Assembly: GCF_023520795.1 (NCBI RefSeq)
Contig: NZ_CP046605.1
Location: 310,001-374,000, forward strand
DNA: 64,000 nt
Origin: Corynebacterium accolens
GTDB taxonomy: Bacteria > Actinomycetota > Actinomycetes > Mycobacteriales > Mycobacteriaceae
Direction of reading: 5' to 3'
Shown: positions 4,520 through 56,597 of the stretch, piece after piece
Position numbering within the stretch: the first letter of the stretch is position 1
Layout of the letters: each line of letters starts with the position of its first letter
Made by a program: the position numbers and the translations under genes
The notes under the pieces: generated by a model
Told to the model about the DNA's origin: nothing
The model's database searches: none
The model's input: the letters and a program-made list of their open reading frames with translations, nothing else

Positions 4520-4963
4520 ATGAAAAATCTCCTGCACGCTTCCGCCGCCGAGGTTAGGGAGCAGGCCACGGGGCAGCATGTTTTGGTCTCGCCGCACCAC
4601 GTGACGGTGGCGGCTGCAGCAGAGCCGGCGGGCATTACCGCCGTGGCGGGCTATCCCACCGGCCGGCACCACACGCTCATCAAGGCCTCTGAGGCCCGCC
4701 TGGCCATCCAGTCCGGCGCGGACGAGGTCTGGGTCAGCGTGGACGCCACGCTTGCCGATGCCACCCCCATCCTCTCCGAGCTCGTAGCCATCCGCGAGGC
4801 TTGCCCGGACCCGGCCCGCGTGGGCCTCATCCTGCCGGAGGCGGAACCGGCACGGTCCCTCGCGGAAACCGCTGCCGCCCAGGCCGGTTTTCACAAGATT
4901 GTCATAGGAAAAGGCAGCGAGCTGTCCAGCTCGCTGCCCGTCGTAGAATTTCCCGCCGCCTAA
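4520..4963 (+). CDS. Short DeoC-like (deoxyribose-phosphate aldolase-like) protein
   Basis: 147 residues, starting 2 bp after the preceding stop. The middle matches the DERA/DeoC barrel pattern: a strand ending in A-G-Y-P-T-G, then K-A-S-E-A-R-L-A-I-Q-S-G-A-D-E-V. Normal DeoC is about 220 residues and carries the Schiff-base lysine in a V-K-T-S-T-G-F strand. That region is missing, so aldolase activity is doubtful. The gene has intact ends and no frameshift, so it looks like a reduced family member. It contains one copy of the CTTGCCGATG word (4751). Confidence 0.6.
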   Translation: MKNLLHASAAEVREQATGQHVLVSPHHVTVAAAAEPAGITAVAGYPTGRHHTLIKASEARLAIQSGADEVWVSVDATLADATPILSELVAIREACPDPARVGLILPEAEPARSLAETAAAQAGFHKIVIGKGSELSSSLPVVEFPAA

Positions 4964-5000
4964 GTCGCGCCCTAGGCCGCCACTCCCTAGGTCGGCGCTG

Positions 5001-5804
5001 TTAGGCGGCCTTCTTCTGCTCGCCGCTCTCGGCGGAGAAGTGGTCCATATCGTTCATCGGGACATCGGTGCCGGTGATGGTCAGCGTGAGCTTGCCATCG
5101 CCCACGTCCACGGATTCAACCTGCATGTCATTGGCAACGAGCTGCTCGGACATGCCGTCCTGCAGGGCATCAGAAATGGCGCTGGTGGCTTGCTCTGGCA
5201 GGGAGAGGCCAAAGATGGCGGCCTCGGTGGCATTGATCTCCAGCTTGCCGTCGCGGGCGGTGGGCTTGAGCGAAAGGCTGGCTAAGCCGCCACCAAACTT
5301 CACTTCAAGCTCGTCGCTCTGGTCATTCGCGGTGATTTCAGTGACCACCATATTCCCAATGGTTTCGCTGCCGGATTGGTCCGAGATTCCCTTTTGGAAG
5401 CTCGCCAGCAGATAGTCATCCGGAACGGTGGTGGTGGCGCGGAGGAAGCCGGCCACTGGGTTATCTGCATCCGTGGACATATCTTCCACGTGGATTTCAG
5501 AGGCGGGTTGACCCTTGATCTGCGAGCCTTCGATCTGCAGGGTCGACGGCGTGGTCATATCCATCTGGGAAATCGAGCCGCGCATAAGCCCAAAGAGGAG
5601 GGGGCTGCCGCCAAAGCTTACCGAGGGATCCTCCGTGACCTCGATGCCTTCTTCTTTGGCGCTATTTTTAAACTCCTCGGTCATCTGGTTACCAATGAAC
5701 CAGCGCAGGCCAAATTCGGCGGTGAGGATTAAAACAAGCAGCGCTACGAGGACGCCTACGACAATTTTCCAAGCGAGCGATCCGCCCGATTTCTTTGCAG
5801 CCAT
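5001..5804 (-). CDS. DUF2993 (LmeA-like) envelope protein
   Basis: I start it at the ATG at 5804 (M-A-A-K-K-S-G-G), giving 267 residues; an in-frame start 12 codons earlier would place odd residues before the membrane helix. A single N-terminal transmembrane helix (about 10-32) is followed by an extracytoplasmic DUF2993 domain. The family includes mycobacterial LmeA, a phospholipid-binding protein involved in mannan elongation of lipoglycans. The specific role here is unproven. It converges with the DeoC-like gene, leaving 37 bp between the stops. Confidence 0.72.
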   Translation of the reverse strand: MAAKKSGGSLAWKIVVGVLVALLVLILTAEFGLRWFIGNQMTEEFKNSAKEEGIEVTEDPSVSFGGSPLLFGLMRGSISQMDMTTPSTLQIEGSQIKGQPASEIHVEDMSTDADNPVAGFLRATTTVPDDYLLASFQKGISDQSGSETIGNMVVTEITANDQSDELEVKFGGGLASLSLKPTARDGKLEINATEAAIFGLSLPEQATSAISDALQDGMSEQLVANDMQVESVDVGDGKLTLTITGTDVPMNDMDHFSAESGEQKKAA

Positions 5805-5853
5805 GACTACCAGTGTGGCGCATGAGGCGGCCGGTGGCAATGTGTGCTGGATA

Positions 5854-6663
5854 TTAGCGGGGCGCGATGCTCTCCCAGCTCACAGTGAGCGTATTATCGC
5901 GCAGCCGGCGGCGGGGAGGCTGGAGGTTAAAGGGGGCATCGGCAAGCAGGGCGTGTGCCATGCGCCATCGCACCCGCGGGCCGTGCGGGGCCCACCCGGC
6001 GGCGCGATCCCAGGCCCTATCGGCGGCCTGCAGGAGCTCGTGGATGGGCTCGCCGGGCACGTTGCGGTGGATGAGCACCTTGGGCAGGCGCTCGGCCACA
6101 TCGGAGGGACGGGCAACGTCGAAGGGATCCCACGCGAGCGTCAGCGTCTTCGGGCCATGCTGATCGAGCAGGATCCACGCCGCGCGCCGGCCCAGCTCAT
6201 CGCAGGTGCCCTCCACGAAGAACCCGCCAGGTGCCAAGCGCGAGCACACCGTCTGCCAGGCCTCCGCGACCTGGTCCACGTCGTATTGGCGCAGCACATT
6301 AAAGGCGCGCACCACCTGCGGCCGGTAGCCAGCGAGCTCAAATCCGCCCAGCTCAAAGCGGACGCCATCGCGCGGCGGCAGTACCCTGTCCGGGTGGATT
6401 TCCAGCCCGCGCACATCCACGCGGGGGTTGATGCGGCGCAGCCACCGCGCCCACTCCACGGTGGTGGTATGCGAGGCACCGTAACCCACGTCGAGCGCGA
6501 GCGGGGTGCGCACGTGGCGCAGCAGGGCCGAGATTTCCGGGTGCGCCATCATCCACCTATCGCAGCGCCTGAGCCTGTTGTAGTTGGTGGTGCCGCGGGT
6601 AATAACGCCAAAAGGCCGACCCGCTGCTGCGCTGGCGCGCAGGTTATGAGCGTGGTCGGCCAT
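5854..6663 (-). CDS. Class I SAM-dependent methyltransferase
   Basis: 269 residues, ATG at 6663. The SAM-binding motif I appears at about residues 54-66 (L-A-L-D-V-G-Y-G-A-S-H), the acidic motif II near R-G-L-E-I-H-P-D, and a motif like G-G-F-F-V-E-G-T-C-D-E near 147-157. The fold is therefore a Rossmann methyltransferase. The substrate cannot be told from the sequence. It is transcribed towards the DUF2993 gene, leaving 49 bp. Confidence 0.7.
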   Translation of the reverse strand: MADHAHNLRASAAAGRPFGVITRGTTNYNRLRRCDRWMMAHPEISALLRHVRTPLALDVGYGASHTTTVEWARWLRRINPRVDVRGLEIHPDRVLPPRDGVRFELGGFELAGYRPQVVRAFNVLRQYDVDQVAEAWQTVCSRLAPGGFFVEGTCDELGRRAAWILLDQHGPKTLTLAWDPFDVARPSDVAERLPKVLIHRNVPGEPIHELLQAADRAWDRAAGWAPHGPRVRWRMAHALLADAPFNLQPPRRRLRDNTLTVSWESIAPR

Positions 6664-7202: not shown

Positions 7203-8336
7203 TTGGTATACGTGCTTGATAAATTTTTGACGCAACAACTCACAGCAATCGACGGCGTAGACGTGGATCCCACGGCGAGCTTTGCCGATCTCACCACCTT
7301 GCGCGTGGGGGGAAAGCCACAGGTCACGTTGCGTTGTTCGCTGCCCGAAGCAGCGGTTGCGGCACTGCGGTACCTCGCGAAAGAAAAAGTTCCTTTCATC
7401 GTGGTCGGCGGCGGCTCCAACCTGCTGGTTTCTGATGGCGAGGTAGACGTAGTCGCCGTTGTCCTGGACTTTGCCGCGGTGGACATGGATACCCAGACCG
7501 GTCTCGTGCGCGCCCAAGCCGGCGCGGTATGGGACGAGGTCGTGGCGGAATCCGTGGCGCAGTCCCTGGGCGGAATCGAGTGCCTGTCCGGCATTCCCGG
7601 CACGGTGGGCGCGGTGCCCGTGCAAAACGTGGGTGCCTATGGCGCCGAGATTTCTGAGGTCCTGACCCGCGTGCGCCTGTATAACCTGCGCACCGATGCC
7701 GATGAGTGGGTTCCCGTCTCCGATCTCGATCTGGCCTACCGCTACTCCAACCTGAAATTCACCGGCCGCGCGGTCGTGCTCGAGGTCGAATTGCAATTAA
7801 CCACGGATGGGCTCTCTCGCCCCTTACGCTTTGGGCAGCTTACCGATAACCCCGGCGAGCGCCGCCCCGTCGCCCAAGTCCGCGAGGAGGTCCTCGCCCT
7901 GCGCCGCGGCAAGGGCATGGTGCTCGATGCCGCCGACCACGACACCTGGTCCGCCGGCTCCTTCTTCACCAACCCCGTGGTCGAATCCAGCGTCGCCGAC
8001 GCCATCCAGGACAAGGTGCGCGCCACGCTTGGCGATGCCCCCGCCGACCGCATGCCCCGCCACCCCGTCGCCGCCGCACAGGGCGACACCTCCCCGCATG
8101 AGAAGCTCTCGGCCGCTTGGCTTATCGATAACGCCGGCTTTACAAAGGGCTACCCCGGCTCCGGCCCGGCAACGCTATCCACCAAGCACACCCTGGCGCT
8201 GACCAATCGCGGAAACGCGACCGCCGCCAATATCGTCGCCCTGGCCCGCACGATCCGCGATGGCGTCCGCGAGGCCTTCGGCGTCGAGCTCGTGCCCGAG
8301 CCCGTGTGGCTGGGCCTATCCATGGACGAGGACTAG
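7203..8336 (+). CDS. murB: UDP-N-acetylmuramate dehydrogenase MurB
   Basis: MurB reduces UDP-GlcNAc-enolpyruvate to UDP-MurNAc with NADPH, the second committed step of peptidoglycan precursor synthesis, in the cytoplasm with FAD bound. The FAD-binding part is clear: T-T-L-R-V-G-G-K-P near residue 31, V-V-G-G-G-S-N-L-L-V near 65 and G-I-P-G-T-V-G-A near 132. The C-terminal substrate domain has S-A-G-S-F-F-T-N-P, with the conserved serine, and W-L-I-D-N-A-G-F. At about 377 residues it is a normal length. Start is TTG 7203 or GTG 7212; no ribosome binding site decides. Confidence 0.92.
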   Translation: MVYVLDKFLTQQLTAIDGVDVDPTASFADLTTLRVGGKPQVTLRCSLPEAAVAALRYLAKEKVPFIVVGGGSNLLVSDGEVDVVAVVLDFAAVDMDTQTGLVRAQAGAVWDEVVAESVAQSLGGIECLSGIPGTVGAVPVQNVGAYGAEISEVLTRVRLYNLRTDADEWVPVSDLDLAYRYSNLKFTGRAVVLEVELQLTTDGLSRPLRFGQLTDNPGERRPVAQVREEVLALRRGKGMVLDAADHDTWSAGSFFTNPVVESSVADAIQDKVRATLGDAPADRMPRHPVAAAQGDTSPHEKLSAAWLIDNAGFTKGYPGSGPATLSTKHTLALTNRGNATAANIVALARTIRDGVREAFGVELVPEPVWLGLSMDED

Positions 8337-10328: not shown

Positions 10329-11846
10329 TTAGTGTGAGGACACTGCTGCCACCAAGATGTCCTGCACCTGGCGGCGGCGCAGCTTGCCCAGCTGATCGGT
10401 GGGCAATTCTTCTTGCACTACGAAATGGCGCGGGACCTTATAGCGGGCCAAAAGGCCGCGGCAGTGCTCGCGCAGCGCCTCCGCGTCGAAGGTGGCGCCG
10501 GGGTGGAGTACCAGGCAGGCGGCGACGTCCTCGGAACCATCGGCACGCGGGATGCCGGCAACCGCAGCTTGGCTTATCGCGGGGTGGCTAAGCAGGGCGT
10601 GTTCCACCTCGCTGGGAAAGACGTTAAAGCCACCGGTGATGATGACCTCTTTAATTCGGCCGACCAGCCGGAAATGGCCATCGGCCTCGCGCACACCCAT
10701 ATCGCCGGTGCGCAGCCAATCGCCGTGGAATGCCTCCCGCGTGGCGGCGGGATTGTCGAGGTAGCCTCCAAAAACCTGGGGTCCGCGGGCAAGAATCTCA
10801 CCGGGCGTGCCATCGGGTTGGCTGCGGTCAAGGTCGTCGGGATCCCCGATGCGCAATTCGGTATCGGCAAGCGGCTTGCCGATGGTCCCCACGCGCCGCC
10901 CCTCACCAAGCGGGTTAATGGTCAGCACGGGGGAGGCCTCGGTAAGCCCGTAGCCCTCGACGAGCATGCCGCCGGTGCGGTCTTGCCAGGGCTCGATGAT
11001 GCGCGCCGGCAGCGATGCAGCCCCGGAAATGGCGTAGCGCACCCCGCCCAGGTCCGCTGCTGCTTCGCCGGCCTGCTCGTACATGGCTCGCTCATAAATG
11101 GTGGGCACACCCGGCATCCAGGTCGGCCGGCGCTGTGCCAAGGCGTTGACCACGGCCGTGGGGCGCGGGGAGGGCAGCAGGATGATCTCGGCGGCGCAGC
11201 GCACCGCGAGCAAGACGCTCATGGTCAGTCCATAGGAGTGGAACATCGGCAGCGTGGCAAGGAAGCGCTCGTGGCCCGGGCGCAGATCGGCCTGGGCTTC
11301 CAATTGGATGCAATTGGCGGCGAGGTTGCCGTGCGTGAGCACCACGCCCTTGGGCTGGCCGGTGGTGCCGGAGGTGTAGAGGATGAGGGCGGCATCGGCA
11401 AGCGCGGCCTCGCGGTGGGGAACTGGGGCGCCGGAGAGGGGAAGGGGCGCCTCCAAAGACACGGGGATCACCGTGCTGGCCAGGCCATCGACCACGGCAG
11501 CGACCTGATCCCAGACCAGGGCGATGCGGGCGCCGTGGTGGGCAAAGAGCGGGGCGAGCTCGTGGGCGGTGTACTGAGGGTTATGTTCGACTACGACCGC
11601 GCCCAGGCGCAGCACCGCGAAAAAGGCAATGAGGTGCTGCGGGGAGTTGGGCAAGACCAGCGCTACCCGGTCGCCGGGGCGGATTCCCATCTCCCGCAGG
11701 GCGCCGGCGGCAGCGGCGATGCGGGTATCAAGCTCCGCGTAGCTCAGGGTCTCGCCACTGAAAAAGGTGGCGGGACGGTGGGGGAAGTTGGCTACGGCGG
11801 TGGCGAGGAAATCCGTCAGCGTGGCGTCGTACTTGAGGTCTGACAT
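10329..11846 (-). CDS. AMP-forming acyl-CoA synthetase (FadD-like), short form
   Basis: 505 residues, ATG at 11846. It belongs to the ANL superfamily: the P-loop motif is L-I-L-Y-T-S-G-T-T-G-Q-P-K-G near 155, then G-Y-G-L-T-E-A-S-P, and the hinge and C-terminal lysine region (G-R-I-K-E-V-I-I-T-G-G-F-N-V-F-P). It likely activates a fatty acid to the acyl-CoA via an acyl-adenylate. Compared with the two larger paralogues next door it lacks about 55 N-terminal residues. It begins 11 bp after the stop of the next fadD gene, so they share an operon. Confidence 0.85.
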   Translation of the reverse strand: MSDLKYDATLTDFLATAVANFPHRPATFFSGETLSYAELDTRIAAAAGALREMGIRPGDRVALVLPNSPQHLIAFFAVLRLGAVVVEHNPQYTAHELAPLFAHHGARIALVWDQVAAVVDGLASTVIPVSLEAPLPLSGAPVPHREAALADAALILYTSGTTGQPKGVVLTHGNLAANCIQLEAQADLRPGHERFLATLPMFHSYGLTMSVLLAVRCAAEIILLPSPRPTAVVNALAQRRPTWMPGVPTIYERAMYEQAGEAAADLGGVRYAISGAASLPARIIEPWQDRTGGMLVEGYGLTEASPVLTINPLGEGRRVGTIGKPLADTELRIGDPDDLDRSQPDGTPGEILARGPQVFGGYLDNPAATREAFHGDWLRTGDMGVREADGHFRLVGRIKEVIITGGFNVFPSEVEHALLSHPAISQAAVAGIPRADGSEDVAACLVLHPGATFDAEALREHCRGLLARYKVPRHFVVQEELPTDQLGKLRRRQVQDILVAAVSSH

Positions 11847-14209: not shown

Positions 14210-15928
14210 TTAGGAGTTCTTCTCTGCTTCGAGGCGGTTGATGAGGTCTTCTTGTACCTCACGGCGGCGGATCTTGCCCATTTGGTCCTTGGCCAGTTCC
14301 TCAAAGTGGTAGAAGGTGCGCGGGACCTTGTAGCGGGTCAGGCGCTCGCGGCAGTAGTCCTTGAGGCCTTCGGGGTCGAGAGCGGCGCCATCGGCAAGAT
14401 CGAGGCAGGCCACGACGTCTTCGGAGCCGTCCTCGCGCGGGCGGCCCACCACGGCGGCGTCGTCGACGCTGGGGTGCTCGCGCAGGATTTCTTCGACCTC
14501 GCCCGGGTAGACGTTGAAGCCGCCGGTGATGATGATTTCCTTGATGCGGCTGACCAGGCGGATGAAGCCGTCTTCTTCCATGATGCCCATATCACCGGTG
14601 CGGAACCAGTCGCCGTGGAAGGCGGCATCGGTGGCTTCCTGGTTATTGAGGTAGCCCTTGAAAATCTGCGGGCCGCGGGCCAGCACTTCGCCCTCAACGC
14701 CGTCCGGCTGGGTTTCATCCAGGTTATCGGGGTTGGCGATGCGCACCTCGGTATCCGGGAAGGGAATGCCCACGTAGCCGGGGCGGCGGTCGGTGCTCAT
14801 GGGGTTGCCCACGATAATGGGCGAGCATTCGGTGAGGCCGTAGCCTTCCACGAGCAGGCCGCCGGTGGCGTGCTCCCACTTATTGACGGTCTCAGAAGGC
14901 AGGGTGGATGCACCGGAGAAGGCCGCGCGCACGCCCTTGATGGGAACCTCTTGTTCCTCGGCTGCCTTGACGATGCGCTCGTACAAGGTAGGAACGCCCG
15001 GGACCCAGGTCGGGGTGTGCTTCTTCATCAACTGCATGATGAGCGGGATCTGCGGCACGGGGAGAATAACCAATTCGCCGCCGATGAGCTGGGCCAAGGT
15101 GACGTTCATGGTCAGGCCGTACGCGTGGAAGAAGGGGAGGGCGGCGAGCATGCGCTCTGGCTTATCCCCCAGGCCCGGGACCCATGCCTTGCCCTGGAGC
15201 AGGTTGGATACGAGGTTGCCGTGCGAAAGCATCGCGCCCTTGGGCGCACCGGTCGTACCGGAGGTGTACATCACCAGCGCGACGGTGTCCTTATCAATGT
15301 CCTCCGGCGTCTTAATATCGCTGCCGTTGCCACCGATGGCATCGCCAATCAGCGCCTCCCACGGCACGGTATTCGGCGCTGGGGCGGAAAGCTGCTCGCG
15401 CTTGGCCTTGAGCGGGGGAAGCGGCAGGCGCAGTGCGGCGCGCTGCAGGGTGGGCATGGCGTTGATCATGTTGATGGACACGACCGTTTCCAGGTTGGTG
15501 GTAGCCCGCAGCTTCTCCAGGGTGGGGGCGGCCTTGTCCCAGGCGATGGCGATGCGCGCGCCGTGATCCTGGAAAAGCCCCTCCAGCTCGTGGGCGGTAT
15601 AAAGCGGGTTGTGCAGAACAACCTGGGCACCGAGCTTCAAGATGGCATAAAAGGCCGCGATGTACTGCGGGCTATTGGGGGCAACGATGGCTACGCGGTC
15701 ACCGGGGCGCACGCCGAAGGCCTTAAGGCCGGCAGCGGCGGCGCGCACTTGGCGGTCCAGCTCGGAATAGTTTTGGGTGCGTCCAAAGAAATACGTGGCT
15801 GACTTATCACCATTGACCTCGAGGTTGTTGTCATACAGGTCCAACAGGGTGGTGGTGCCATAGTCGAGGCTATGCGGCGTCCACTCCGGGTAATACTGGA
15901 GCCATGCCTTTGATTCATAAGCGGACAA
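14210..15928 (-). CDS. fadD: Long-chain fatty-acid-CoA ligase (FadD), tandem paralogue
   Basis: 572 residues from a TTG at 15928 (M-S-A-Y-E-S-K-A-W), the same beginning as the paralogue at 11858-13567, which supports this start. Motifs: L-V-M-Y-T-S-G-T-T-G-A-P-K-G, G-Y-G-L-T-E-C-S-P, R-I-K-E-I-I-I-T-G-G-F-N-V-Y-P. It is the first gene of the leftward fadD-ogt-fadD-fadD group. Its upstream region is shared with the divergent mshA (66 bp). Confidence 0.88.
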   Translation of the reverse strand: MSAYESKAWLQYYPEWTPHSLDYGTTTLLDLYDNNLEVNGDKSATYFFGRTQNYSELDRQVRAAAAGLKAFGVRPGDRVAIVAPNSPQYIAAFYAILKLGAQVVLHNPLYTAHELEGLFQDHGARIAIAWDKAAPTLEKLRATTNLETVVSINMINAMPTLQRAALRLPLPPLKAKREQLSAPAPNTVPWEALIGDAIGGNGSDIKTPEDIDKDTVALVMYTSGTTGAPKGAMLSHGNLVSNLLQGKAWVPGLGDKPERMLAALPFFHAYGLTMNVTLAQLIGGELVILPVPQIPLIMQLMKKHTPTWVPGVPTLYERIVKAAEEQEVPIKGVRAAFSGASTLPSETVNKWEHATGGLLVEGYGLTECSPIIVGNPMSTDRRPGYVGIPFPDTEVRIANPDNLDETQPDGVEGEVLARGPQIFKGYLNNQEATDAAFHGDWFRTGDMGIMEEDGFIRLVSRIKEIIITGGFNVYPGEVEEILREHPSVDDAAVVGRPREDGSEDVVACLDLADGAALDPEGLKDYCRERLTRYKVPRTFYHFEELAKDQMGKIRRREVQEDLINRLEAEKNS

Positions 15929-17301: not shown

Positions 17302-18048
17302 ATGACTAACGGAAAACTGATTCTTCTTCGCCACGGCCAATCCACCTGGAATGAATCCAACCAATTTACCGGTTGGGTCGATGTTGATCTGACAGAAAAG
17401 GGTGAGGCAGAGGCCAAGCGTGGCGGCGAGCTGCTCGCGCAAGAGGGCATCCTGCCCAACGTTCTGTACACCTCCTTGCTGCGCCGCGCCATCCGCACCG
17501 CCAATATCGCGCTGGATGCGGCCGACCGCCACTGGATCCCGGTCATCCGTGACTGGCGCCTTAACGAGCGTCACTACGGTGCGTTGCAGGGCCTGAACAA
17601 GGCCGAGACCAAGGAAGAATACGGCGAGGACCAGTTCATGGCATGGCGCCGTTCCTATGACACGCGCCCGCCCGAGCTTGCCGATGACGCCGAGTACTCC
17701 CAGGCCAACGACCCCCGCTACGCGGACTTGGACAAGGTCCCACAGACGGAGTGCCTGAAGGACGTTGTCGAGCGCTTCGTGCCCTACTTCGAGGAAGAGA
17801 TTCTGCCGCGGGCTAAGAAGGGCGAATCCGTCATGATCGCAGCGCACGGCAACTCCCTGCGCGCGTTGGTCAAGCACCTCGATGGTATTTCCGATGATGA
17901 CATCGCCGGGCTGAATATCCCGACCGGCATCCCGCTGGTGTACGAGATTGCGGAGGATGGCTCCGTGGTCAACGAGGGCGGCACCTACCTGGATCCAGAG
18001 GCCGCCGAGGCCGGGGCCGCTGCCGTCGCCGCGCAGGGTGGCAAGTAA
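17302..18048 (+). CDS. gpmA: 2,3-bisphosphoglycerate-dependent phosphoglycerate mutase
   Basis: 248 residues, ATG preceded by GGAGG. It interconverts 3- and 2-phosphoglycerate in glycolysis. The phosphohistidine motif is [12 protein letters not shown] at about 6-17, and the second catalytic histidine lies in [10 protein letters not shown] near 182. The typical [14 protein letters not shown] motif is present. Full length. It is followed by a strong hairpin (18065-18097) directly before senX3. Confidence 0.95.
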
Positions 18049-18098: not shown

Positions 18099-19379
18099 AT
18101 GGTTAGGCTTAATGACGTGGAATTAATTTTTGTCTTTCTCGCGGGCGTGGTTGCCTGCGCGGTGGTGCTGCCGTTAATTTCGCGGGTGCGCGAGCGCATG
18201 GTACGCCGCCAGCGCGCCAGCGATGCCCAGGCAAACCAGGTCACCACCGTGAGCCAAGGCCTGCATCTTGCGGTCCAAGGCTCGCCCACGGCGCTGACGG
18301 TGCTCGATAGGAACCAGGAAATCATCCTGTCCAATCCAGCGGCGCACGAGATGTCCGTGGTCCACGATCGCGCCGTCAACCCAGAGATCTGGAAGACCGC
18401 AGAGCAGGTCTTCGAGGATAAGGAAACCCGCACCGTGGACTTGGCCATCCCCAAGCGCCGCACCGGGCACCGCGTCACACAGGTCAAGGCCGTCATCAAG
18501 CCGCTGACGCTTAACGATGGCCGCTTCATCATCATCTACGGCACCGATGAGAGCGAAAACGTGCGCATGGAATCCGCGCGCCGTGACTTCGTGGCCAACG
18601 TCTCTCATGAGCTGAAAACCCCGGTGGGTGGCATCGCGCTGCTTGCCGAGGCCCTCCTCCAAGACCCCGAGGACCCGGAGCATGTGAAGTACTTCGGTAC
18701 CAAGGTACAAAAAGAGGCCAACCGCATGGCGGATATGGTCAGCGAGCTCATTTCGCTCTCCAAGCTGCAGGGCGCCGAGGCACTGCCGGAGATGGAACCG
18801 CTTTTCGTGGACGATCTCATCGACGAGGCGATTTCGCGCAATCAGCTCGCCGCAGACGCGCGCTCCATCAGGCTGACCCAAGGTCCCTCCGAGGACGTGC
18901 AGGTCATGGGTGACCGCTCCCTCTTGGTAACCGCGCTGTCCAACCTCATTTCCAACGCGATCAATTATTCGCCAGAGGAATTGCCGGTCTCCGTCTCACA
19001 GAAGGTGGTGGGGGATGACGTCGTGCTGATCCGGGTAACGGACCGCGGCATCGGCATCCCGCCGGAGCATCAAAAGCGCGTCTTCGAGCGCTTTTTCCGC
19101 GTTGACCAAGCCCGGTCGCGGCAGACGGGAGGCACTGGCCTAGGATTAGCAATTGTCAAACACGTGGTGGCCAACCACGGGGGCAATATCAAGCTGTGGT
19201 CGCGGCCTGGCACGGGCTCTACTTTCACCATCGAGTTGCCCATATATAAGGAAGAGAAGCCAGCGCACGAGGCTGACTTGCAGGATAATGAAGACAGGGA
19301 TTCCGTCGATGCGGCGGCTCCTGGGCTCCAGCGTGCGGTAGCACGCGTAGCAGCACGTCGAAAGGATAAAGCACAATGA
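18099..19379 (+). CDS. senX3: Sensor histidine kinase SenX3
   Basis: 426 residues from the ATG at 18099. One N-terminal membrane helix (about 8-28) is followed by a PAS-like domain (about 50-155), the dimerisation/phosphoacceptor motif F-V-A-N-V-S-H170-E-L-K-T-P, and an ATPase domain with N-L-I-S-N-A-I-N-Y-S, D-R-G-I-G-I-P and G-L-G-L-A-I-V boxes. The SenX3-RegX3 pair responds to phosphate limitation in mycobacteria. A GTG start at 18078 inside the upstream hairpin is possible. It overlaps regX3 by 4 bp (ATGA), indicating translational coupling. Confidence 0.92.
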   Translation: MVRLNDVELIFVFLAGVVACAVVLPLISRVRERMVRRQRASDAQANQVTTVSQGLHLAVQGSPTALTVLDRNQEIILSNPAAHEMSVVHDRAVNPEIWKTAEQVFEDKETRTVDLAIPKRRTGHRVTQVKAVIKPLTLNDGRFIIIYGTDESENVRMESARRDFVANVSHELKTPVGGIALLAEALLQDPEDPEHVKYFGTKVQKEANRMADMVSELISLSKLQGAEALPEMEPLFVDDLIDEAISRNQLAADARSIRLTQGPSEDVQVMGDRSLLVTALSNLISNAINYSPEELPVSVSQKVVGDDVVLIRVTDRGIGIPPEHQKRVFERFFRVDQARSRQTGGTGLGLAIVKHVVANHGGNIKLWSRPGTGSTFTIELPIYKEEKPAHEADLQDNEDRDSVDAAAPGLQRAVARVAARRKDKAQ

Positions 19380-20086: not shown

Positions 20087-20982
20087 TACCAGCCGGCCTT
20101 GATGCTGGCCGGGTGCTGGGTAAGCTTCACGCCGTGCTCGGCGGCTTCCGCACGAGCCCGGCATTGTTGCGCCAAAATATCGTAGCTTTCGCGCCCCATG
20201 AGCGCGACGAGCTCGTCCTCGTGCGATTGCCACATCGGCAGCGGATTGGCGTGGCAGGCGCTATCGGTAGAGCAGTACCAATCAAAGTCTTCGCCGCCAT
20301 TGCCCCAGCCACGGCGGTCATATTCGCCGATGGTGGTGCGCAAAATTTCCTGCCCATCGGGGCGTTCTTCATAATCCTCGTAGCGCCGCAGCGGCAGCTG
20401 CCAGCACACCTCTGGCTTGACCACGGTCAGTTCCTCGCCACTATCGACGGCCCATTGGTGCAGCGCGCAGCCGGTTCCCGTTTCCCAGCCGGCGCGGTTG
20501 GCAAAGATGCAGGCGCCATCCACGATGGGCGTTTTCAGCGCCGGCTCAGGTTCGCCGTCCTCGCCGTCAAGCTCATCCCATTCCAACCACGGCTCTAGCT
20601 CATCGGTATTTTCTTGCGCCAAGAACTCATCTACCCCCGCTGGCCGCAGCTGCCAGTAGCGCGCGGGCATGCGGGAGACGGCATCGTAAAGCTGGTCCCG
20701 GTCTTGTTCATCGGCCATATATGCACCGTGCACGCAGCAGCCCACATCGGGCTGGCTCTTATCGATGCCCCTGCACGCCGACGTGCCAAATTGGCAGCTG
20801 TAGTGCGATTCCACCCACGTCAGATCGATGGAAAAGACGTGGTAAGGGTCGTTTGGGTTGGTAAATTCGAACCACTCCCGCGGAAAATCTGGGGCCTCTT
20901 CGCGCCCGGCTTTAATCGATGCCGCCGCTGGCGAGCTCGCGGGAAAACCTAGGTAAACGGTGTCAGATTTTGGGCGATTCAC
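20083..20982 (-). CDS. Conserved cysteine-rich protein, unknown function
   Basis: 299 residues, ATG at 20982. It has no signal peptide or membrane span. Eight cysteines are visible, including C-Q-F-G-T-S-A-C, the pair in [24 protein letters not shown] and a pair near Y-C-S-T-D-S-A-C-H. The G-C-A-L-H and G-C-C-x-H-G spacing suggests a metal or Fe-S centre, as in YkgJ/DUF3109-type proteins, but I cannot confirm the family. The 3' end overlaps regX3 by 4 bp on the opposite strand. Confidence 0.6.
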
Positions 20983-28323: not shown

Positions 28324-29211
28324 ATGTTCCAGATTGGTACCCGTGGCTCCAAGCTCGCCACCACCCAGGCAGGACACGTCCGCGATTGGCTTATCGATGC
28401 CGGATTCGATTCCGAACTCCACATCGTCACCACCGCAGGCGATACCAATATGGCCCCGGTCGAGCGCATCGGCGTGGGCGTATTTACCCAGGCGCTGCGC
28501 GAGGCGCTGTGCCGCGGCGAATGCGATATCGCCGTGCACTCTTTCAAGGACCTGCCCACGGCCGAGGATGACCGCTTCCGCCTGGTCATTCCGCAGCGCC
28601 AGGACAGCCGAGAGGTGCTGGTCGCCCGCGATGGGATGACCCTGATGCAGCTGCCGGAGGGGGCGCGCGTAGGAACCTCGGCGCCGCGCCGCATTTCCCA
28701 ATTGGCCGCCCTGCGCCCGGACCTGGAGATCCGGCCACTGCGCGGCAATATCGATACCCGCATGTCCAAGGTGACCGACGGCGAGCTCGACGCCGTGGTG
28801 CTGGCCTATGCCGGCCTGCTGCGCGGCGGCTACGAGGATCGGGCGAGCGATATTTTCGATCCAGAATTATTCATGCCCGCTCCCGCCCAGGGTGCGCTTG
28901 CCATCGAGGCCGTCGCCGGCACCGAGGCCGCCGCGGCGCTCGACGCTGTTGTCGATGAACAAGCCACCGCCGCAGCCCTCGCCGAGCGCGCCGTTCTCGC
29001 CCGCCTTGAGGCCGGCTGCACCGCGCCCGTGGCCGCCACGTCCCGCTGGAATGGCGATCAGCTCACGGTGCGCGGCGGCGTCTTTGCGCTGGATGGTTCC
29101 CGCCAATTGACCGCCACCGCCTCTGGCACCGCGGCGGAAGCTGCGGAGTTGGGCGCGCGGGTCTCTGATGAGCTTTTCGCCCAAGGCGCGGCCGACCTGC
29201 TGGGTCAGTAA
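28324..29211 (+). CDS. hemC: Hydroxymethylbilane synthase (porphobilinogen deaminase) HemC
   Basis: 295 residues. It joins four porphobilinogen units into hydroxymethylbilane. The dipyrromethane cofactor is attached to C232 in [10 protein letters not shown]. Other family marks are T-R-G-S-K-L-A at 6-12, H-S-F-K-D-L-P-T near 72-79 and G-T-S-A-P-R-R near 117-123. Its ATG directly follows the hemA stop, so the two are co-translated. A 209-bp gap containing a hairpin separates it from hemD. Confidence 0.96.
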
Positions 29212-38859: not shown

Positions 38860-40161
38860 ATGCCTAATACTTCCCAGTCGCAACAGTGGTTCGAGCGTTC
38901 CTCCAAAGTGATCCCGGGCGGGGTGAACTCGCCGGTGCGCGCTTTCGGCTCCGTGGGCGGCCAGGCCCGCGTGATCGAGCGGGGCGCAGGATCGCGCCTG
39001 TGGGATGTCGACGGCAATGAGTACGTCGACCTCGTGAGCTCGTATGGCCCGATGATCCACGGCAATGCGCACCCGGAAATCGTCGAAGCCGTGCAGCGGG
39101 CTGCCACCGGCGGGCTGAGTTTTGGCACGCCAACGGAGGGTGAGGCGCTGCTGGCGGAGGAAATCGTCAAGCGCACCGCGGCCGATAAGGTGCGCATGGT
39201 CAACTCCGGCACGGAGGCGACCATGTCGGCGGTGCGTTTGGCCCGCGGCTATACGGGCCGCGCGAAGGTGCTGAAGTTTGAGGGGTGCTACCACGGGCAC
39301 GTGGATGCGCTGTTGGCATCGGCGGGCTCGGGCGTGGCGACGTTTGGCCTGCCGGATTCGCCGGGTGTTACGGGTGCGACGGCGAAGGACACCATCGTCG
39401 TTCCTTATAACGATCTGGATGCGGTGCGCGAGGCCTTCGCGGAGAACGAGGGCCAGATTGCCTGCATCATTGCGGAAGCCTCTGCCGGCAATATGGGCAC
39501 CGTGGCCCCGAATGAGGGCTTCAACGCGGCGCTGAAGGAAATCGCGCATGCCGATGGCGCCCTGCTCATCCTCGACGAGGTCATGACCGGCTTCCGCACC
39601 TCCTATAAGGGCTGGTACGGCGTCGATGGCGTGGCGGCGGACCTGGTGACCTTTGGCAAGGTGGTTTCCGGTGGCTTGCCGGCCGCGGCCTTTGGCGGTC
39701 GCGCCGAGGTCATGGACTACCTGGCGCCGGATGGTCCGGTCTATCAGGCGGGCACCTTGTCCGGTAACCCGGTGGCGATGGCCTCGGGCCTGAAGTCGCT
39801 GCAGCTTGCCGATGAATCCCTTTACCCCCGCCTTCAAGAAAAGGCCGACCAGCTTGGCGCGATGATTTCCTCCGCGCTGGAGGCCGAGGGCGTGGCGCAC
39901 CACATTCAGCGCGCGGCATCCATGTTCTCCATTCGCTTTGCAGAGGGCGAGGGCCGCAACTTCGCGGACATGCAGGCCGCAGAGAACTTCCGCTTTGCCC
40001 CGTTCTTCCACGCGCTGCTTGAAAACGGCATCTACGTGGCACCGAGCGCGTTCGAGACCTGGTTCGTCTCTGATGCTCTTGGCGATGCCGACTTCGAGCG
40101 CATCGATGCCGCCCTCAAGCCCGCCGCGAAGGCCGCGGCTGCAGCGCGTCCCGCACAATAA
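38860..40161 (+). CDS. hemL: Glutamate-1-semialdehyde 2,1-aminomutase HemL
   Basis: 433 residues from the ATG at 38860; an ATG at 38851 is also in frame. It makes 5-aminolevulinate from the HemA product using PLP. Key parts: [12 protein letters not shown] near 15-26, N-S-G-T-E-A-T near 116-122, the cofactor aspartate in [11 protein letters not shown], and the PLP lysine in [10 protein letters not shown]. Full length. The following phosphatase gene starts 36 bp later in the same direction. Confidence 0.96.
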
Positions 40162-42234: not shown

Positions 42235-43866
42235 GTGAAATATATCCGCAAAGCCTGGCGCTGGCTTACCAGCATGCGCACTGCGCTGGCCCTGCTTTTC
42301 TTGCTGGCGCTCGCCGCCATCCCCGGCTCCCTCTTGCCGCAGCGCGACCTGAACGAGCAGAACGTGCAGGAGTTCATCGAATCCAATGGCACCGTAGCGG
42401 AAATCTACGATAAGCTGCAGCTTTTTGATGTCTTTTCCTCCATCTGGTTCCAAGCCATCTTCCTGCTGTTGGCGGTCTCGCTCATCGGCTGCATCATTCC
42501 GCGCTCCATCGATCACTACAAGGCGTGGCGCACTCAACCCACGCGCGCGCCGAAGTACCTGCACCGCCTGCCGCTGAGCGCCGAGGGGCATTCGGATAAG
42601 AGCGAGGAAGAACTCAGCGCGGAGATCCACAAGCGCCTGAAAAGGTGGCGCGTGGCCGAGTACGCCCCGGATAAGGATCGCGCCGGGGTGCACGCCTTTT
42701 CGGCCGAGCGCGGCTACGGCCGCGAGCTGGCCAACCTCATTTTCCACGTCGCGCTGGTGGCTATTCTGGTCACCGTGGCCGCTGGCCGCCTGGTCAACTA
42801 CGAGGGCCAGGTCATCGTGGTGACGGAGTCCGGCTCGCAGGGCGGCAATACCTCGCTGGAGCAGTCCACGGAGTTTTGTAATACCTCCACCTCGAACTTT
42901 GACTCCTTCCGAGCAGGGCCGCTTTTCGATGGCACCGGGCTCCACCCCTTCTGCATGACCGCGCACGACTTCACCGCGAAGTACCTGCCCAATGGCCAGG
43001 CGGAGATGTTTACCTCCAACGTTTCTTATGCGGAGGGCGACGATATTTATAAAGATTCTTCCGAATGGAAGGACTACGAGCTCAAGGTCAACCACCCGCT
43101 GCGTCTGGCACAAAACCGCGTCTACCTGCAGGGCCACGGCTATGCGCCGACGGTGACGGTGGAGTGGCCGGATGGGGAAAAGCGCACGCAGACCATCCAG
43201 TTCCAGCCCACTGACACGACCTTCTTCCTGTCTTCGGGCGTGCTGCGCTTTGACCCGCCTGCGGGCATGTACCCGGATCTTTTCGAGCGCCGCCAAAACC
43301 AACTGGCCATCCAGGGCCTTTTCGCCCCGACGGCCGAGTGGAGCGGTGAGAATGGCAAGCTTTTGCAGTCTTCCCACCCGGGCCTCAACGATCCGGCGCT
43401 GGCGGTTGATATCTACCGCGGCGATGCTGGCCTCGATACCGGTACGCCGCAGTCGCTCTTCTCGCTGGACACAAGCCTCGTGCACTCCGGGCAGCTGCAG
43501 AAGATCGACCGCGTGAACCTGAGCCAGGGCGATGACGTCACGCTTGACGATGGCACCAAGATCACCTTCAACGGCGCCAATGAGTTTGCTAATTACCAGG
43601 TCTCCTATGACCCATTCCAGAAGTGGGTGCTGGCATCCGCGCTGATCATGTTGGTATCCCTGGTGGCCTCATTGATGATTAAGCGCCGCCGCGTCTATAT
43701 TCGCCTGCGGCCGGATTCCGCCGGCGGCACCACCATCGAGATGGGTGGTCTCGCCCGCACCGACCGCGCCGGCTGGTCCGAGGAATTCCACGAGCTGCAC
43801 CGCGCGCTCTTGGAGCTTCCGGATCCAGATGAGGTGGAAGAAGACAAACTCTATACTGATGATTGA
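42235..43866 (+). CDS. resB: Cytochrome c biogenesis protein ResB
   Basis: 543 residues from GTG 42235, with AGGAG 5 bp upstream. Three N-terminal membrane helices (about 15-35, 65-90, 165-185) are followed by a large extracytoplasmic domain and a fourth helix near 470-490, the ResB/Ccs1 layout. With CcsB it forms the system II heme lyase that exports and attaches heme to apocytochrome c. The ending is acidic. A perfect 20-bp palindrome overlaps its stop codon. Confidence 0.92.
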   Translation: MKYIRKAWRWLTSMRTALALLFLLALAAIPGSLLPQRDLNEQNVQEFIESNGTVAEIYDKLQLFDVFSSIWFQAIFLLLAVSLIGCIIPRSIDHYKAWRTQPTRAPKYLHRLPLSAEGHSDKSEEELSAEIHKRLKRWRVAEYAPDKDRAGVHAFSAERGYGRELANLIFHVALVAILVTVAAGRLVNYEGQVIVVTESGSQGGNTSLEQSTEFCNTSTSNFDSFRAGPLFDGTGLHPFCMTAHDFTAKYLPNGQAEMFTSNVSYAEGDDIYKDSSEWKDYELKVNHPLRLAQNRVYLQGHGYAPTVTVEWPDGEKRTQTIQFQPTDTTFFLSSGVLRFDPPAGMYPDLFERRQNQLAIQGLFAPTAEWSGENGKLLQSSHPGLNDPALAVDIYRGDAGLDTGTPQSLFSLDTSLVHSGQLQKIDRVNLSQGDDVTLDDGTKITFNGANEFANYQVSYDPFQKWVLASALIMLVSLVASLMIKRRRVYIRLRPDSAGGTTIEMGGLARTDRAGWSEEFHELHRALLELPDPDEVEEDKLYTDD

Positions 43867-45037: not shown

Positions 45038-45295
45038 ATGGCCACCAACCATAGCCCGCGCAATAAACAGGGAAAGCCCGCCGGCGATAACGAGCTCATC
45101 TTGGGCTTGGGCGCGCAGATTGCGCAGCGGCGGCGGGAGTTGGGCATCGTCCAGCAGCAGCTTGCCGATGCCGCCCAAGTCTCCCGCTCCACCCTCCACA
45201 CCATCGAACACGGTGGGGCAGGCGTGCGGTGGGAAAAGGTTATCGCCGTGGCAGAAGCGCTGGGCTTAGAGATGCGTTTCGTGCCAAAGGATTAA
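45038..45295 (+). CDS. Small XRE-type helix-turn-helix regulator
   Basis: 85 residues; the ATG directly follows the ccsB stop. After a polar start the HTH runs from about 25 to 75 (Q-Q-L-A-D-A-A-Q-V-S-R-S-T-L-H-T-I-E-H-G). The ending E-K-V-I-A-V-A-E-A-L-G-L-E-M-R-F is HipB-like, but no HipA toxin gene is next to it. Its position suggests it could control the cytochrome c maturation operon; this is inference. Confidence 0.75.
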   Translation: MATNHSPRNKQGKPAGDNELILGLGAQIAQRRRELGIVQQQLADAAQVSRSTLHTIEHGGAGVRWEKVIAVAEALGLEMRFVPKD

Positions 45296-46934: not shown

Positions 46935-48071
46935 TTAGGCGCTAAAGAGGGCGGCGACGGCCTGGCGGTCGACCTTGCCAGGGCCGGTGGTGGGAAAGTC
47001 CGCGAGGCGCTTTAAGTCCTTAGGCAGCTGCCAGCGGGGGAGTTCGGCGTCTTCGAGGGCCTCGAAGATATCGCCAAGTTCGGCATCACCGGTATAGGCG
47101 GCCACGATGGCCTGGCCCAGCCGCGGGTGCGGGATGCCGACGACGCACGCCTCGTCAACACCGGGCACCCGGAGGATCTCGCGTTCCAAGACGTCTGGGT
47201 GCAGCTTCAACCCGCCGGAGTCGATGACATTATCGAGGCGCCCGGTGACGGTGAGGATGCCGTCTTTGATGACACCGGCATCGGAAGTGGCGAACCACCC
47301 GTTTCCGGGAAACGCCTCGTGGCTTGGGGCATTGCGGTAGCCCTGCGCGATGGTGGGCCCGCCGAGCAAGATGCGGCCGTCCTGGACGCGGGCGGTCGTT
47401 CCAGGCAGGGGGCGGCCATCGTAGACGCAGCCGCCGGCGGTCTCGGAGGAACCGTAGGTGGTGGTGATAGTGATGCCCTGGTCCGCGGCCGCGGCGTGCA
47501 GGCGCGGGTGGATGGCGGCACCGCCCACCAAGATGGCATCGAAACTCTGGAGCGCATCGATGCCCTCCGCCACATCCATGGCCTTGGCCAGCTGCAGCGG
47601 GGTGAGCGCGGTGTAGGTGCGGTCGCCGGTGCGGGAGAGCTCCGCGGCGGCGCGGGCGAAGGCAGAGATATTAAAGCCTTCGCTGAGATCGAGGCAGAGC
47701 GGATCCACCCCGGCCACTAGGGAGCGGACGAGGACCTGGATGCCGGCGATGTGGTGGGCGGGCATCGCTAAGAGCCATTGCCCAGGGCCGCCGAGGACCT
47801 GGTGGGTGGCATCGGCGCTGGCGACCAGGTTGGCCGGCGTTAATTGCGCGCCCTTTGGGGTGCCGGTGGACCCGGAGGTGGAGACCACGAGCGCGATATC
47901 CTCGGCGATGGGCTCACCGGCGCGCTGGGAATTGCGCAGGAGGGTGGCGCGGGTGGCATCGGCAAGCGGCAGCGGCAAAAAGCAGGACCTGCCGGCAATG
48001 GCGGATTCGAGGTCCGGCAGGATGGCCGCGGGATCGTGCGGATCGACGGGCAAGGGGGCGAGGATAGTCAC
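46935..48071 (-). CDS. menE: o-succinylbenzoate-CoA ligase MenE
   Basis: About 378 residues; I use GTG 48071 but GTG 48092 is also open. It activates o-succinylbenzoate to the CoA ester for menaquinone. The ANL motifs are V-V-S-T-S-G-S-T-G-T-P-K-G, T-Y-G-S-S-E-T-A-G-G and G-R-L-D-N-V-I-D-S-G-G. It is shorter at the N-terminus than E. coli MenE, as is usual in actinobacteria. Same-strand partner of menB; a tiny membrane-protein gene lies between them. Confidence 0.9.
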   Translation of the reverse strand: MTILAPLPVDPHDPAAILPDLESAIAGRSCFLPLPLADATRATLLRNSQRAGEPIAEDIALVVSTSGSTGTPKGAQLTPANLVASADATHQVLGGPGQWLLAMPAHHIAGIQVLVRSLVAGVDPLCLDLSEGFNISAFARAAAELSRTGDRTYTALTPLQLAKAMDVAEGIDALQSFDAILVGGAAIHPRLHAAAADQGITITTTYGSSETAGGCVYDGRPLPGTTARVQDGRILLGGPTIAQGYRNAPSHEAFPGNGWFATSDAGVIKDGILTVTGRLDNVIDSGGLKLHPDVLEREILRVPGVDEACVVGIPHPRLGQAIVAAYTGDAELGDIFEALEDAELPRWQLPKDLKRLADFPTTGPGKVDRQAVAALFSA

Positions 48072-49563: not shown

Positions 49564-50025
49564 CTATGAAGTTATCAGTTCCGTATTCCAGTTCAACTGC
49601 TGGATGCGGGTATCAAGCTCCCGGTACTGCTTGGACAGGTCATCGACCCGTTTGCGCAGTTCTGCTACCGGCAGCGTGGCCACGAACTTAATCTCCGCGC
49701 GGGAGTAGCGATCCTGGCGCGCGCCCGCGGCCTGGGCGAGGTCGTGGTAGATGCGGCGGGTGCGCACGAGGCCATCGCGAAGCGCCAGTGCCTGCATCAA
49801 GTTCTTCTCGCCATCAAAATCAGTGGCCACGTTTGTGGCATTGATGGCCTGCACGAGCTTATCGATGCGCCCAGTAATGCCCTCCAACTCGCGCAAAAGC
49901 TCGGCCGGATCCTCGTCCGGGGTATCGCCCTCCTGCACGCGCACGACGGAGAGCAGGCGCTCGCGCAGCTCATTGAGCCGATCCTGCGCCTGCGCGCGCT
50001 CTGCTAATGCCTCTGCCAGTAACAT
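49564..50025 (-). CDS. DIP1984 family protein
   Basis: 153 residues from the ATG at 50025 (M-L-L-A-E-A-L-A-E-R-A-Q-A-Q); a longer start 19 codons upstream has a Pro-rich, unlikely N-terminus. Two long amphipathic helices flank a conserved middle (I-N-A-T-N-V-A-T-D-F, L-A-L-R-D-G-L-V-R-T-R-R-I-Y). This matches the DIP1984 family, named from C. diphtheriae and sometimes called septolysin; activity is not established. It lies between menB and the CRISPR array. Confidence 0.75.
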   Translation of the reverse strand: MLLAEALAERAQAQDRLNELRERLLSVVRVQEGDTPDEDPAELLRELEGITGRIDKLVQAINATNVATDFDGEKNLMQALALRDGLVRTRRIYHDLAQAAGARQDRYSRAEIKFVATLPVAELRKRVDDLSKQYRELDTRIQQLNWNTELITS

Positions 50026-52027: not shown

Positions 52028-52031
52028 TTTC

Positions 52032-55331: not shown

Positions 55332-55351
55332 GAGGAAAGTCCTTTCAGATA

Positions 55352-55432
55352 TAAGAAAAGCCGAACCCGAAGGTTCGGCTGGAGCATTCAACGCCGGAAA
55401 CGAGCCGACGCTTACTAAGGTTCAGTTCTCAT
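55352..55432 (-). ncRNA. tracrRNA candidate
   Basis: On the minus strand, ATGAGAACTGAACC (55432-55419) is exactly complementary to repeat positions 6-19 and would pair with crRNA. It is followed by a short nexus-like stem (about 55410-55392) and a strong terminator stem of AGCCGAACC/GGTTCGGCT with a TTCG tetraloop (55380-55359) and a T-rich tail. The layout (anti-repeat, nexus, terminator) matches II-C tracrRNAs. Ends are approximate. The upstream TATATT sequence could be its -10 region. Confidence 0.82.
55355..55380 (-). terminator. Rho-independent terminator of the tracrRNA
   Basis: A perfect 9-bp stem (55380-55372 with 55367-55359) closed by a UUCG-type tetraloop, followed by TTTC. It sits 28 bp before the cas9 GTG, so cas9 must either be expressed by read-through or from a promoter within or after the tracrRNA. 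Confidence 0.85.
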
Positions 55433-55586
55433 ATAAGAATATAACTTATTATCCGGAACATTTGTAGATCAGGCAGAATATATCCACCTATTGGGGGTAA
55501 ATATTAACCCTGCTGAGTGGCTCCGATGAGCAACTGTGGCCATCCCAACTTAGGTAGGGGTAAATAATGCCGGATAGTATGGCTCT

Positions 55587-56597
55587 ATGAACATAGATGA
55601 CGTTCTCGACCGCGCCCACGTAGTCTCCCTCCCACTGGCCGTGAAGTTTCGCGGCATCACCACGCGGGAGGCACTGCTTATTGATGGGCCTGCCGGTTGG
55701 GGTGAATTTGCGCCGTTCCTGGAATACGGGCCCGCGGAATCGGCCGCGTGGCTGCGCGCCGGGCTGGAGGCCGCTTACGAGGGGTTTCCTAAACCCGTCC
55801 GCGAGTGGGTAGAGGTCAATGCCACCATTCCCGCCGTTCCCGCCAGTGAGGTCCCGGCGATTGTGGATCGCTACCCCGGCTGCCGGACGTTCAAGATCAA
55901 GGTGGCGGAGAAGGGCCAGACGCTTGCCGATGACATCGCGCGCGTCCAGGCCGTCCGCGATCACGTCAGCGCCCGCGGCGTTGTCCCGGTGCTGCGCGTA
56001 GACGCCAATGGCGGCTGGAGCGTGGCCGAGGCGGTAGAGGCTGCCCAGGCGCTCATGCCGCTGGATTATATGGAACAACCCTGCGCGAGCGCGGAAGAAC
56101 TGGTGGAGGTGCGCAGGCAGCTCATGCGCAACGGGCTTTTTGTGCGTGTGGCCGCGGATGAATCCATTCGCAAGGTGGAGGATCCATACCGCGTGGCGGA
56201 TCTGCAGGCGGCCGATGTGGCGGTGGTCAAACCCGCGCCGCTGGGCGGGGTGCGCCGCGTCCTCGACGTGGCACAACACCTGCGCGAACGGCACATGGAT
56301 ATTACGGTGGCCTCGGCGCTGGATACTTCTATTGGCATCAATATGGGCTTGGCGGCAGTGGCGGCGTTGCCGCAAATCTATGACGACGAAGATATCGACG
56401 TCACCCCGGCGGCAGCGGGTCTTGCCACGGGCAGCCTCTTCGAAGAAGATGTCACCGCGCCCCGCCAGCTACACGACGGGCACCTGCGCGCCGAGATCCT
56501 CGCCCCAGAACCGGACCGTTTGTCCTCCTTGGCCGCCCCGGCCAGCCGCCGTGAGTGGTGGTTCGGGCGCCTCCGGGAATCGTGGCAATTCCTGTAG
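55587..56597 (+). CDS. menC: o-succinylbenzoate synthase MenC
   Basis: 336 residues, ATG at 55587. It dehydrates SHCHC to o-succinylbenzoate in the menaquinone pathway. Enolase-superfamily residues: catalytic K in F-K-I-K-V-A, metal ligands in R-V-D-A-N-G-G, E-Q-P and A-D-E-S, and a second lysine in V-V-K-P-A-P-L-G-G. Actinobacterial length. The CRISPR-Cas locus separates it from menB and menE. Confidence 0.93.
   Translation: MNIDDVLDRAHVVSLPLAVKFRGITTREALLIDGPAGWGEFAPFLEYGPAESAAWLRAGLEAAYEGFPKPVREWVEVNATIPAVPASEVPAIVDRYPGCRTFKIKVAEKGQTLADDIARVQAVRDHVSARGVVPVLRVDANGGWSVAEAVEAAQALMPLDYMEQPCASAEELVEVRRQLMRNGLFVRVAADESIRKVEDPYRVADLQAADVAVVKPAPLGGVRRVLDVAQHLRERHMDITVASALDTSIGINMGLAAVAALPQIYDDEDIDVTPAAAGLATGSLFEEDVTAPRQLHDGHLRAEILAPEPDRLSSLAAPASRREWWFGRLRESWQFL

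Follow-up and report, generated by a model that had tools for sequence, protein, structure and literature searches.

A short DNA word with dialects across Corynebacterium, probably a DNA uptake sequence

Two families of Gram-negative bacteria are known to use DNA uptake sequences. Those of the Neisseriaceae (DUS) are species-specific words of about 10-12 bases with hundreds to thousands of copies; single or few base changes set their dialects apart, and some genomes of the family have no obvious word (PMC3630211). The uptake signal sequences (USS) of the Pasteurellaceae likewise reach hundreds to thousands of copies, with a different motif in one subclade, and uptake sequences favour one orientation within reading frames (PMC2346458). 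The subject of the present study is a word found in a window of 64,000 bases of Corynebacterium accolens (contig NZ_CP046605.1, positions 310,001 to 374,000; G000:C1:310001-374000 in our numbering, G000 being a single-contig genome of 2,465,625 bases, 2.47 Mb), which is enriched throughout this genome and, in related dialects, through much of the genus. Like the DUS, it is short, has a similar copy number, forms dialects and is missing from some genomes; unlike them, it is a different word in a different phylum, a ComP-type receptor is known only on the Neisseria side, and its density between the genes of C. accolens is not raised. With the USS it shares copy number, a subclade motif and a gene-strand preference, whereas the word itself is unrelated (PMC2346458). 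Because hundreds of strict copies on the two strands, the absence of replication skew, a pressure at the DNA level, the gene-strand preference, scarcity in the few mobile elements examined and lineage-wise dialects, taken together, come close to the picture in the Neisseriaceae, the word is most likely a DNA uptake sequence that marks DNA as "self" in natural transformation, a reading to which we assign a probability of about 0.64.

An earlier note on this stretch, made by eye, had singled out the 10-base word CTTGCCGATG. All 19 copies that it listed lie exactly where it placed them, and 17 of them are preceded by G, as it said. Dinucleotide shuffles of the window give a mean of 0.21 copies, with none of 100 shuffles reaching 19. 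The enrichment, put at about 100-fold in the note, is strong at about 90-fold by this shuffle; its size varies with the null model, and for the 11-base word GCTTGCCGATG it is only 34-fold (73 copies versus 2.15 expected) under a fourth-order Markov model trained on a sample that itself contains the word. This sample of 464 kb, consisting of the window and 20 stretches of 20 kb, underlies the C. accolens sample counts given below. The note would have given up the word if it were not enriched outside the window; GCTTGCCGATG occurs 340 times across the genome (166 forward, 174 reverse), and the same word read backwards not once. The window, with 17 copies, is about twice as rich in the word as the genome on average (8.8 per 64 kb). 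The word is thus short and in tens-fold excess on both strands of the whole genome.

The 10-base word is not the natural unit. Judged by single-base variants in the sample, any base is accepted at position 6, and position 5 is partly free, so that the motif is better written GCTTNNCGATG, the second N being preferentially C. Copies of GCTTGNCGATG number 73 with C, 19 with G, 19 with T and 14 with A, and the variants GCTTTCCGATG, GCTTATCGATG and GCTTTTCGATG have 13, 15 and 10 copies, respectively. The third letter is slightly tolerant (6-8 copies versus about 2 expected), GCTTGCCGACG has 5 copies, and variants at the remaining fixed positions are barely, if at all, above expectation, near misses being scarce at most of them. 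Across the genome GCTTNNCGATG has 1021 copies, compared with 7 for its reversed control, and the window contains 16 further family sites beside the 17 strict ones (33 in total). The flanks of the copies show C at codon third positions and little else. Even or clustered spacing was sought among the copies and not found: the gaps are random-like (coefficient of variation 1.07), and six pairs lie less than 80 bases apart, two of them inverted.

The window from 16980 to 38323, which covers 17 family sites, was aligned with five close relatives and with eight loci of the C. tuberculostearicum group ("group loci" below). The strict copies, in window coordinates, are:

4750..4760, plus strand: GCTTGCCGATG, sense, Leu-Ala-Asp frame
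5937..5947, minus strand: GCTTGCCGATG, sense to its gene
10874..10884, plus strand: GCTTGCCGATG, antisense
11393..11403, minus strand: GCTTGCCGATG, sense
14389..14398, minus strand: CTTGCCGATG, leading G absent
17676..17686, plus strand: GCTTGCCGATG, sense; site in 0 of 8 group loci
22341..22351, minus strand: GCTTGCCGATG, antisense; stretch does not align with the relatives
22677..22686, minus strand: CTTGCCGATG, leading G absent
27726..27736, plus strand: GCTTGCCGATG in hemA; GCTTTCCGACG at the same place in 8 of 8 group loci
28122..28132, plus strand: GCTTGCCGATG in hemA; group without site
30910..30920, minus strand: GCTTGCCGATG, antisense, third frame; group without full site
34185..34195, minus strand: GCTTGCCGATG in the URO-D gene, antisense; GCTTGCCGACG in 8 of 8 group loci
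35424..35434, plus strand: GCTTGCCGATG in the protoporphyrinogen oxidase gene, sense; group without site
37618..37628, minus strand: GCTTGCCGATG, sense; GCTTGCCGACG in 8 of 8 group loci
38222..38232, plus strand: GCTTGCCGATG, antisense; GCTTTCCGATG in 8 group loci, T kept (counter-example)
39804..39814, plus strand: GCTTGCCGATG, sense
45160..45170, plus strand: GCTTGCCGATG, sense
47957..47967, minus strand: GCTTGCCGATG, sense
55922..55932, plus strand: GCTTGCCGATG in menC, sense

The family variants are:

2603..2613, minus strand: GCTTTCCGATG
8027..8037, plus strand: GCTTGGCGATG
18509..18519, plus strand: GCTTAACGATG; GCTTAACGACG in 5 of 8 group loci
20682..20692, minus strand: GCTTTACGATG; GCTTTACGACG in 7 of 8 group loci
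23820..23830, plus strand: GCTTGTCGATG; GCTTGTCGACG in 6 of 8 group loci, GCTTGTCGATG kept in 2 of 8 (counter-example)
28389..28399, plus strand: GCTTATCGATG; GCTTATCGACG in 8 of 8 group loci
30146..30156, minus strand: GCTTGGCGATG; group without site
30698..30708, plus strand: GCTTGTCGATG; group without site
30983..30993, plus strand: GCTTGTCGATG; GCTTGTCGACG in 7 of 8 group loci
31555..31565, plus strand: GCTTAACGATG; GCTTAACGACG in 6 of 8 group loci
42921..42931, plus strand: GCTTTTCGATG
43542..43552, plus strand: GCTTGACGATG
49773..49783, minus strand: GCTTCGCGATG
49857..49867, plus strand: GCTTATCGATG
56988..56998, minus strand: GCTTGGCGATG
59095..59105, plus strand: GCTTCGCGATG

The distribution of the dialects was assessed by whole-genome counts in 242 Corynebacterium genomes, with class thresholds of 250 copies for CGACG and 400 for CGATG. 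Fourteen genomes carry GCTTNNCGATG (the CGATG dialect, 490-1337 copies), and 168 carry GCTTNNCGACG (the CGACG dialect, 280-1964 copies), the latter at 3.2 to many times the reversed control (median 16.6); one genome, G062, carries both (CGATG 1337, CGACG 352). Sixty genomes fall under both thresholds, which is not the number wholly without the word, because 8 of them retain CGACG at more than twice the control (e.g., 195 versus 20 in G137 and 210 versus 35 in G221) and CGATG reaches intermediate numbers, 159-223, in four genomes (G066, G070, G180 and G205). When a word of their own was sought in four family-less genomes, G013, G159 and G067 yielded nothing strong, and G051 (2.03 Mb, one of the 60) proved to contain a private, unrelated word, ATGACGYCGCG, with 644 copies there and at most 42 in the other 241 genomes. 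G128 uses an extended dialect, roughly AGCTTGCCGATGCCCCC, and in its samples (L137-L146) TGCCGATGCC is commoner than the full GCTTGCCGATG. A possible further dialect, TTATCGACGCC, in which the GCTT half is absent, was seen in the loci L041, L043 and L045 of the Corynebacterium sp. NML98-0116 group.

Related but altered words also appear in other species among 80 named hemA loci (up to about 21 kb), a scan in which the two control words are reverse complements of each other and hence amount to one control. The related dialects that mark uptake sequences are found here among related species. Outside the genus, GCTTNNCGAYG reaches at most about twice its reversed control in 120 genomes drawn evenly across the order; the highest ratio, about 2, belongs to family f9 (e.g., G032, G285 and G337). 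In a tree of 96 HemA proteins, a single starred group of 35 rows takes in all 13 CGATG rows together with 18 CGACG rows. The two dialects require at least three changes on this tree, or nine if "none" is counted as a state; the tree is a quick search on one gene with long branches flagged, and its states rest on up to about 21 kb of sequence for 80 rows and on whole genomes for 16. The contrast between dialects is clearest in position 10, which is T in 91% of the C. accolens family copies (1021:97) and in 17% of those in G201 (165:787), despite similar shares of GAT among the Asp codons in samples of the two genomes (57% and 51%). These genome-wide shares weigh more as evidence of dialects than the local T/C comparison given below.

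It is this dialect pattern across the genus that favours uptake. A surface DNA receptor, perhaps part of a Tad/Flp pilus or linked to ComEA, would bind double-stranded DNA bearing GCTTNNCGATG; ComEC would then import one strand, and recombination would spread the tagged allele. Biased uptake of this kind would pile up copies wherever they are tolerated, whatever the strand, in more than one frame and in intergenic DNA as well. A shift in the preference of the receptor would be followed by the genome, and the dialects could so have arisen: CGATG for the window's own group and a few others, CGACG for the majority of the genus, the extended form of G128 and the private word of G051. On balance, it seems somewhat better than an even chance that much of Corynebacterium undergoes sequence-selective transformation, perhaps based on Flp pili, with words that switch dialect and, in one genome, have been replaced.

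The dialects also bear on the possibility of an abundant DNA-binding protein or mutational drive unrelated to uptake, for which the HIP1 word of cyanobacteria, a palindrome (GCGATCGC) of extreme over-representation whose function is not known, would be the model. Like HIP1, the present word is short and extremely over-represented, and a strict word with hundreds of copies and random-like gaps would suit such an origin. In contrast to HIP1, GCTTNNCGATG is non-palindromic and has dialects, and the dialects of sister groups together with the private word in one species call for a fast, co-evolving reader, for which reasons we consider a HIP1-like origin improbable.

The same places were compared in the aligned part of the window. 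Glutamyl-tRNA reductase places Corynebacterium sp. KPL1814 (97%) and C. macginleyi (95%) among the closest named relatives of the genome, in a listing that may omit the window's own entry. Sixteen of the 17 family sites align with the C. tuberculostearicum locus L014, and 10 of these are kept as family sites, position 10 being C instead of T in 8 of the 10. Control words, unmatched for frame, were kept in 128 of 552 cases, of which 11 were switched. A codon-matched control narrows the contrast, with changes in 7 of 8 motif Asp codons and in 30 of 62 other GAT codons before G. At the antisense site at 34185, the dialect difference turns an Ile into Val in the three C. tuberculostearicum-group loci that were translated. 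There are counter-examples as well, CGATG being kept by both groups at 38222 and by two of the eight loci at 23820. In C. macginleyi, whose presumed genome has 490 copies of CGATG, half the number of its neighbours, 8 of 16 aligned sites are kept (locus L012); the other 8 are lost, 4 of them through a single transition and 1 through two, as if the pressure on the word had been relaxed.

Orthologous places in the relatives are mostly of equal length and differ by single bases. This contradicts, at the aligned sites, a small mobile repeat inserted many times (the site at 22341 and a few others are unaligned), and the flanks, with little beyond C at codon third positions, speak against insertion too. 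The high copy number is all that such a repeat would account for; it was set aside as having next to no probability.

The position of the copies relative to genes was examined on genes that a simple script predicted from codon usage, not on annotated ones, and with a shuffle that retains the protein and codon usage of each gene, not its codon pairs. In the window, the 17 strict copies comprise 12 in the Leu-Ala-Asp frame, 4 antisense in Ile-Gly-Lys and 1 antisense in another frame; with the two copies lacking G (14389 and 22677, read on their gene strands), the numbers become the 13, 5 and 1 claimed previously. In the C. accolens sample, 135 of the 188 family copies occupy the sense Leu-X-Asp frame. 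Such a concentration in a single frame might point to a codon-pair or messenger RNA-level preference for Leu-X-Asp with CTT; the codon-preserving shuffle, however, yields only 5.0 copies in that frame, and enrichment extends beyond it, to the other sense frames (3 versus 0.8 and 1 versus 0.02), to two antisense frames (34 versus 11.0 and 9 versus 0.05; the third has 0) and to intergenic DNA (6 versus 0.93 by a Markov null). Samples of four other genomes show the same kind of frame pattern, with intergenic copies of 12 versus 0.33 in G128, 2 versus 0.30 in G065, 7 versus 0.26 in G062 and 7 versus 0.25 in G201. Since antisense copies, several frames and intergenic DNA are all enriched beyond codon-preserving or Markov nulls, codon-pair bias fails and is very unlikely as an explanation; the pressure acts on the DNA itself. 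The earlier note had suspected that codon-pair bias alone might not suffice, and of its options an uptake-type or protein-binding motif still stands. The copies mostly sit where coding cheaply permits them.

The absence of strand bias, which the same note had reported, holds for replication and fails for genes: 139 family copies in the sample are sense and 43 antisense. The replication halves were set from the start of the contig, where lies a gene that we take to be dnaA from its end, and from the GC skew of the sampled stretches, which reaches zero and below from about 1.28 Mb. Of the 340 copies of GCTTGCCGATG, 180 are on the leading strand (89 forward in the first half and 91 reverse in the second; p = 0.30). 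A replication-oriented signal, in the manner of Chi or KOPS (FtsK-orienting polar sequences), was rejected on this count, and the lack of leading-strand skew disfavours a KOPS- or Chi-like signal, as had been argued before.

A Chi-like self-marker is nevertheless the main rival. Here a helicase-nuclease or defence nuclease would spare or recombine DNA bearing the word and degrade the rest, and the dialects would track the enzyme. Chi, too, is a short, species-specific word favoured on the chromosome, and dialects particular to each lineage would fit, as would scarcity in the plasmids and phage examined. Family words number 2 in 26 kb of a C. tuberculostearicum plasmid (about 9.9 expected from the density in G201) and 0 in 29 kb of a C. 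aurimucosum plasmid (13 in 21 kb of a chromosomal locus of the species); as plain counts, there are 0 in 50 kb of a C. stationis plasmid, 2 in 49 kb of a C. efficiens plasmid and 1 in 42 kb of phage BFK20. Positions 1-25000 of the window had no megablast match to phages. Chi-type words are, however, usually oriented with replication, the enrichment found here far exceeds that of Chi, and selection on about 1000 single sites seems a weaker force than biased uptake. We therefore hold a Chi-like self-marker to be unlikely.

For a DNA uptake sequence, genes of an uptake machinery should be present, and in C. accolens they are predicted. Genes for a ComEA-like protein (225 aa) and a ComEC-like protein (467 aa) lie side by side, and an operon has the order CpaE, TadA, TadB, TadC, Flp, TadE and TadE-like protein, all with open frames; TadB, TadC and Flp were named from position and likeness. 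TadA, CpaE, the second TadE-like protein and the domain models of ComEA and ComEC score above the NCBIfam cut-offs. Eight tad-locus queries all match in each of 20 loci, TadC of G156 over 33 residues only. In Micrococcus luteus, also an actinobacterium, transformation requires Flp pili, and the combination of tad clusters with ComEA/ComEC is described as frequent in that actinobacterial lineage (PMC4322843); in Neisseria, the receptor that binds the uptake word is ComP (PMC6370729). Some oddities of ComEC were seen: G205 (90% complete) has no match, G153 has an in-frame TGA, and G053, G001 and G246 each have two separate matches.

Several observations weigh against an uptake sequence. Full-length ComEA, full-length ComEC and the first TadE model fall below the cut-offs in C. 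accolens, and no NCBIfam model matches its Flp. Of the 242 genomes, all but G205 have ComEC (PF03772; 241 genomes), and 235 have a T2SSE-type ATPase that scores above the cut-off, in both cases with or without the word; four of the 20 tad loci come from word-less genomes, with all eight queries matching. Neither ComEC nor a Tad-type ATPase separates the genomes that have the word from those that do not, and both were rejected as genetic correlates; the machinery thus allows for the word but leaves it unexplained. No convincing dialect-specific residue emerged in TadE, TadG or Flp aligned from 20 genomes: one TadE column separates the dialects with an inconsistent residue, and TadG and Flp have no such column. 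The density of family copies in the C. accolens sample is far lower between genes (6 in 84.5 kb) than in coding sequence (182 in 379.6 kb), which is not expected of a typical uptake sequence; a raised intergenic density, common in uptake sequences though not strictly defining, occurs only in G128 of the five genomes. Haemophilus influenzae differs in this respect, its coding sequence showing a slight shortfall of uptake sequences (PMC2346458). The local T/C contrast is modest under the matched control, and the scarcity of the word in mobile DNA was seen in a tiny sample, four plasmids and one phage. Finally, no Corynebacterium transformation experiment was found in the literature searched.

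Among the matches listed in that search, which took in few subscription papers and no preprints, neither the titles nor the abstract openings mention this word or any uptake sequence in Corynebacterium. If the uptake reading is true, the genus-wide dialects would be an independent case of an uptake-sequence system, in Actinomycetota and thus in Gram-positive bacteria. Commensals of the skin and nose would then be expected to be naturally transformable and to meet barriers in exchanging genes across dialects, and the DNA acceptable to each species could be predicted directly. The word points to possible natural transformation in common human commensals and their industrial relatives, and the many close species would allow the study of a reader and about 1000 sites changing together.

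Two other features of the window deserve mention. A type II CRISPR-Cas locus comprises Cas9 (52032-55391, minus strand), Cas1 (51113-52099, minus strand) and 10 repeats about 64 bases apart (50137-50766). Family words are absent between 49867 and 55922, and, as noted earlier for the strict word, no copy, strict or family, lies in 50137-55391 or in the transposase genes near the window ends. A second array in the genome (L131 12661-19184, about 1.773-1.779 Mb) has 99 repeats, mostly with 61-base spacing, whose repeat looks like type I-E. The transposase genes (766-1479, 60435-61094 and 62511-63173) have rve/HTH_21 and DDE_Tnp_IS240 domains, and positions 60300-63999 have matches in IS3 and IS6 elements of Corynebacterium plasmids.

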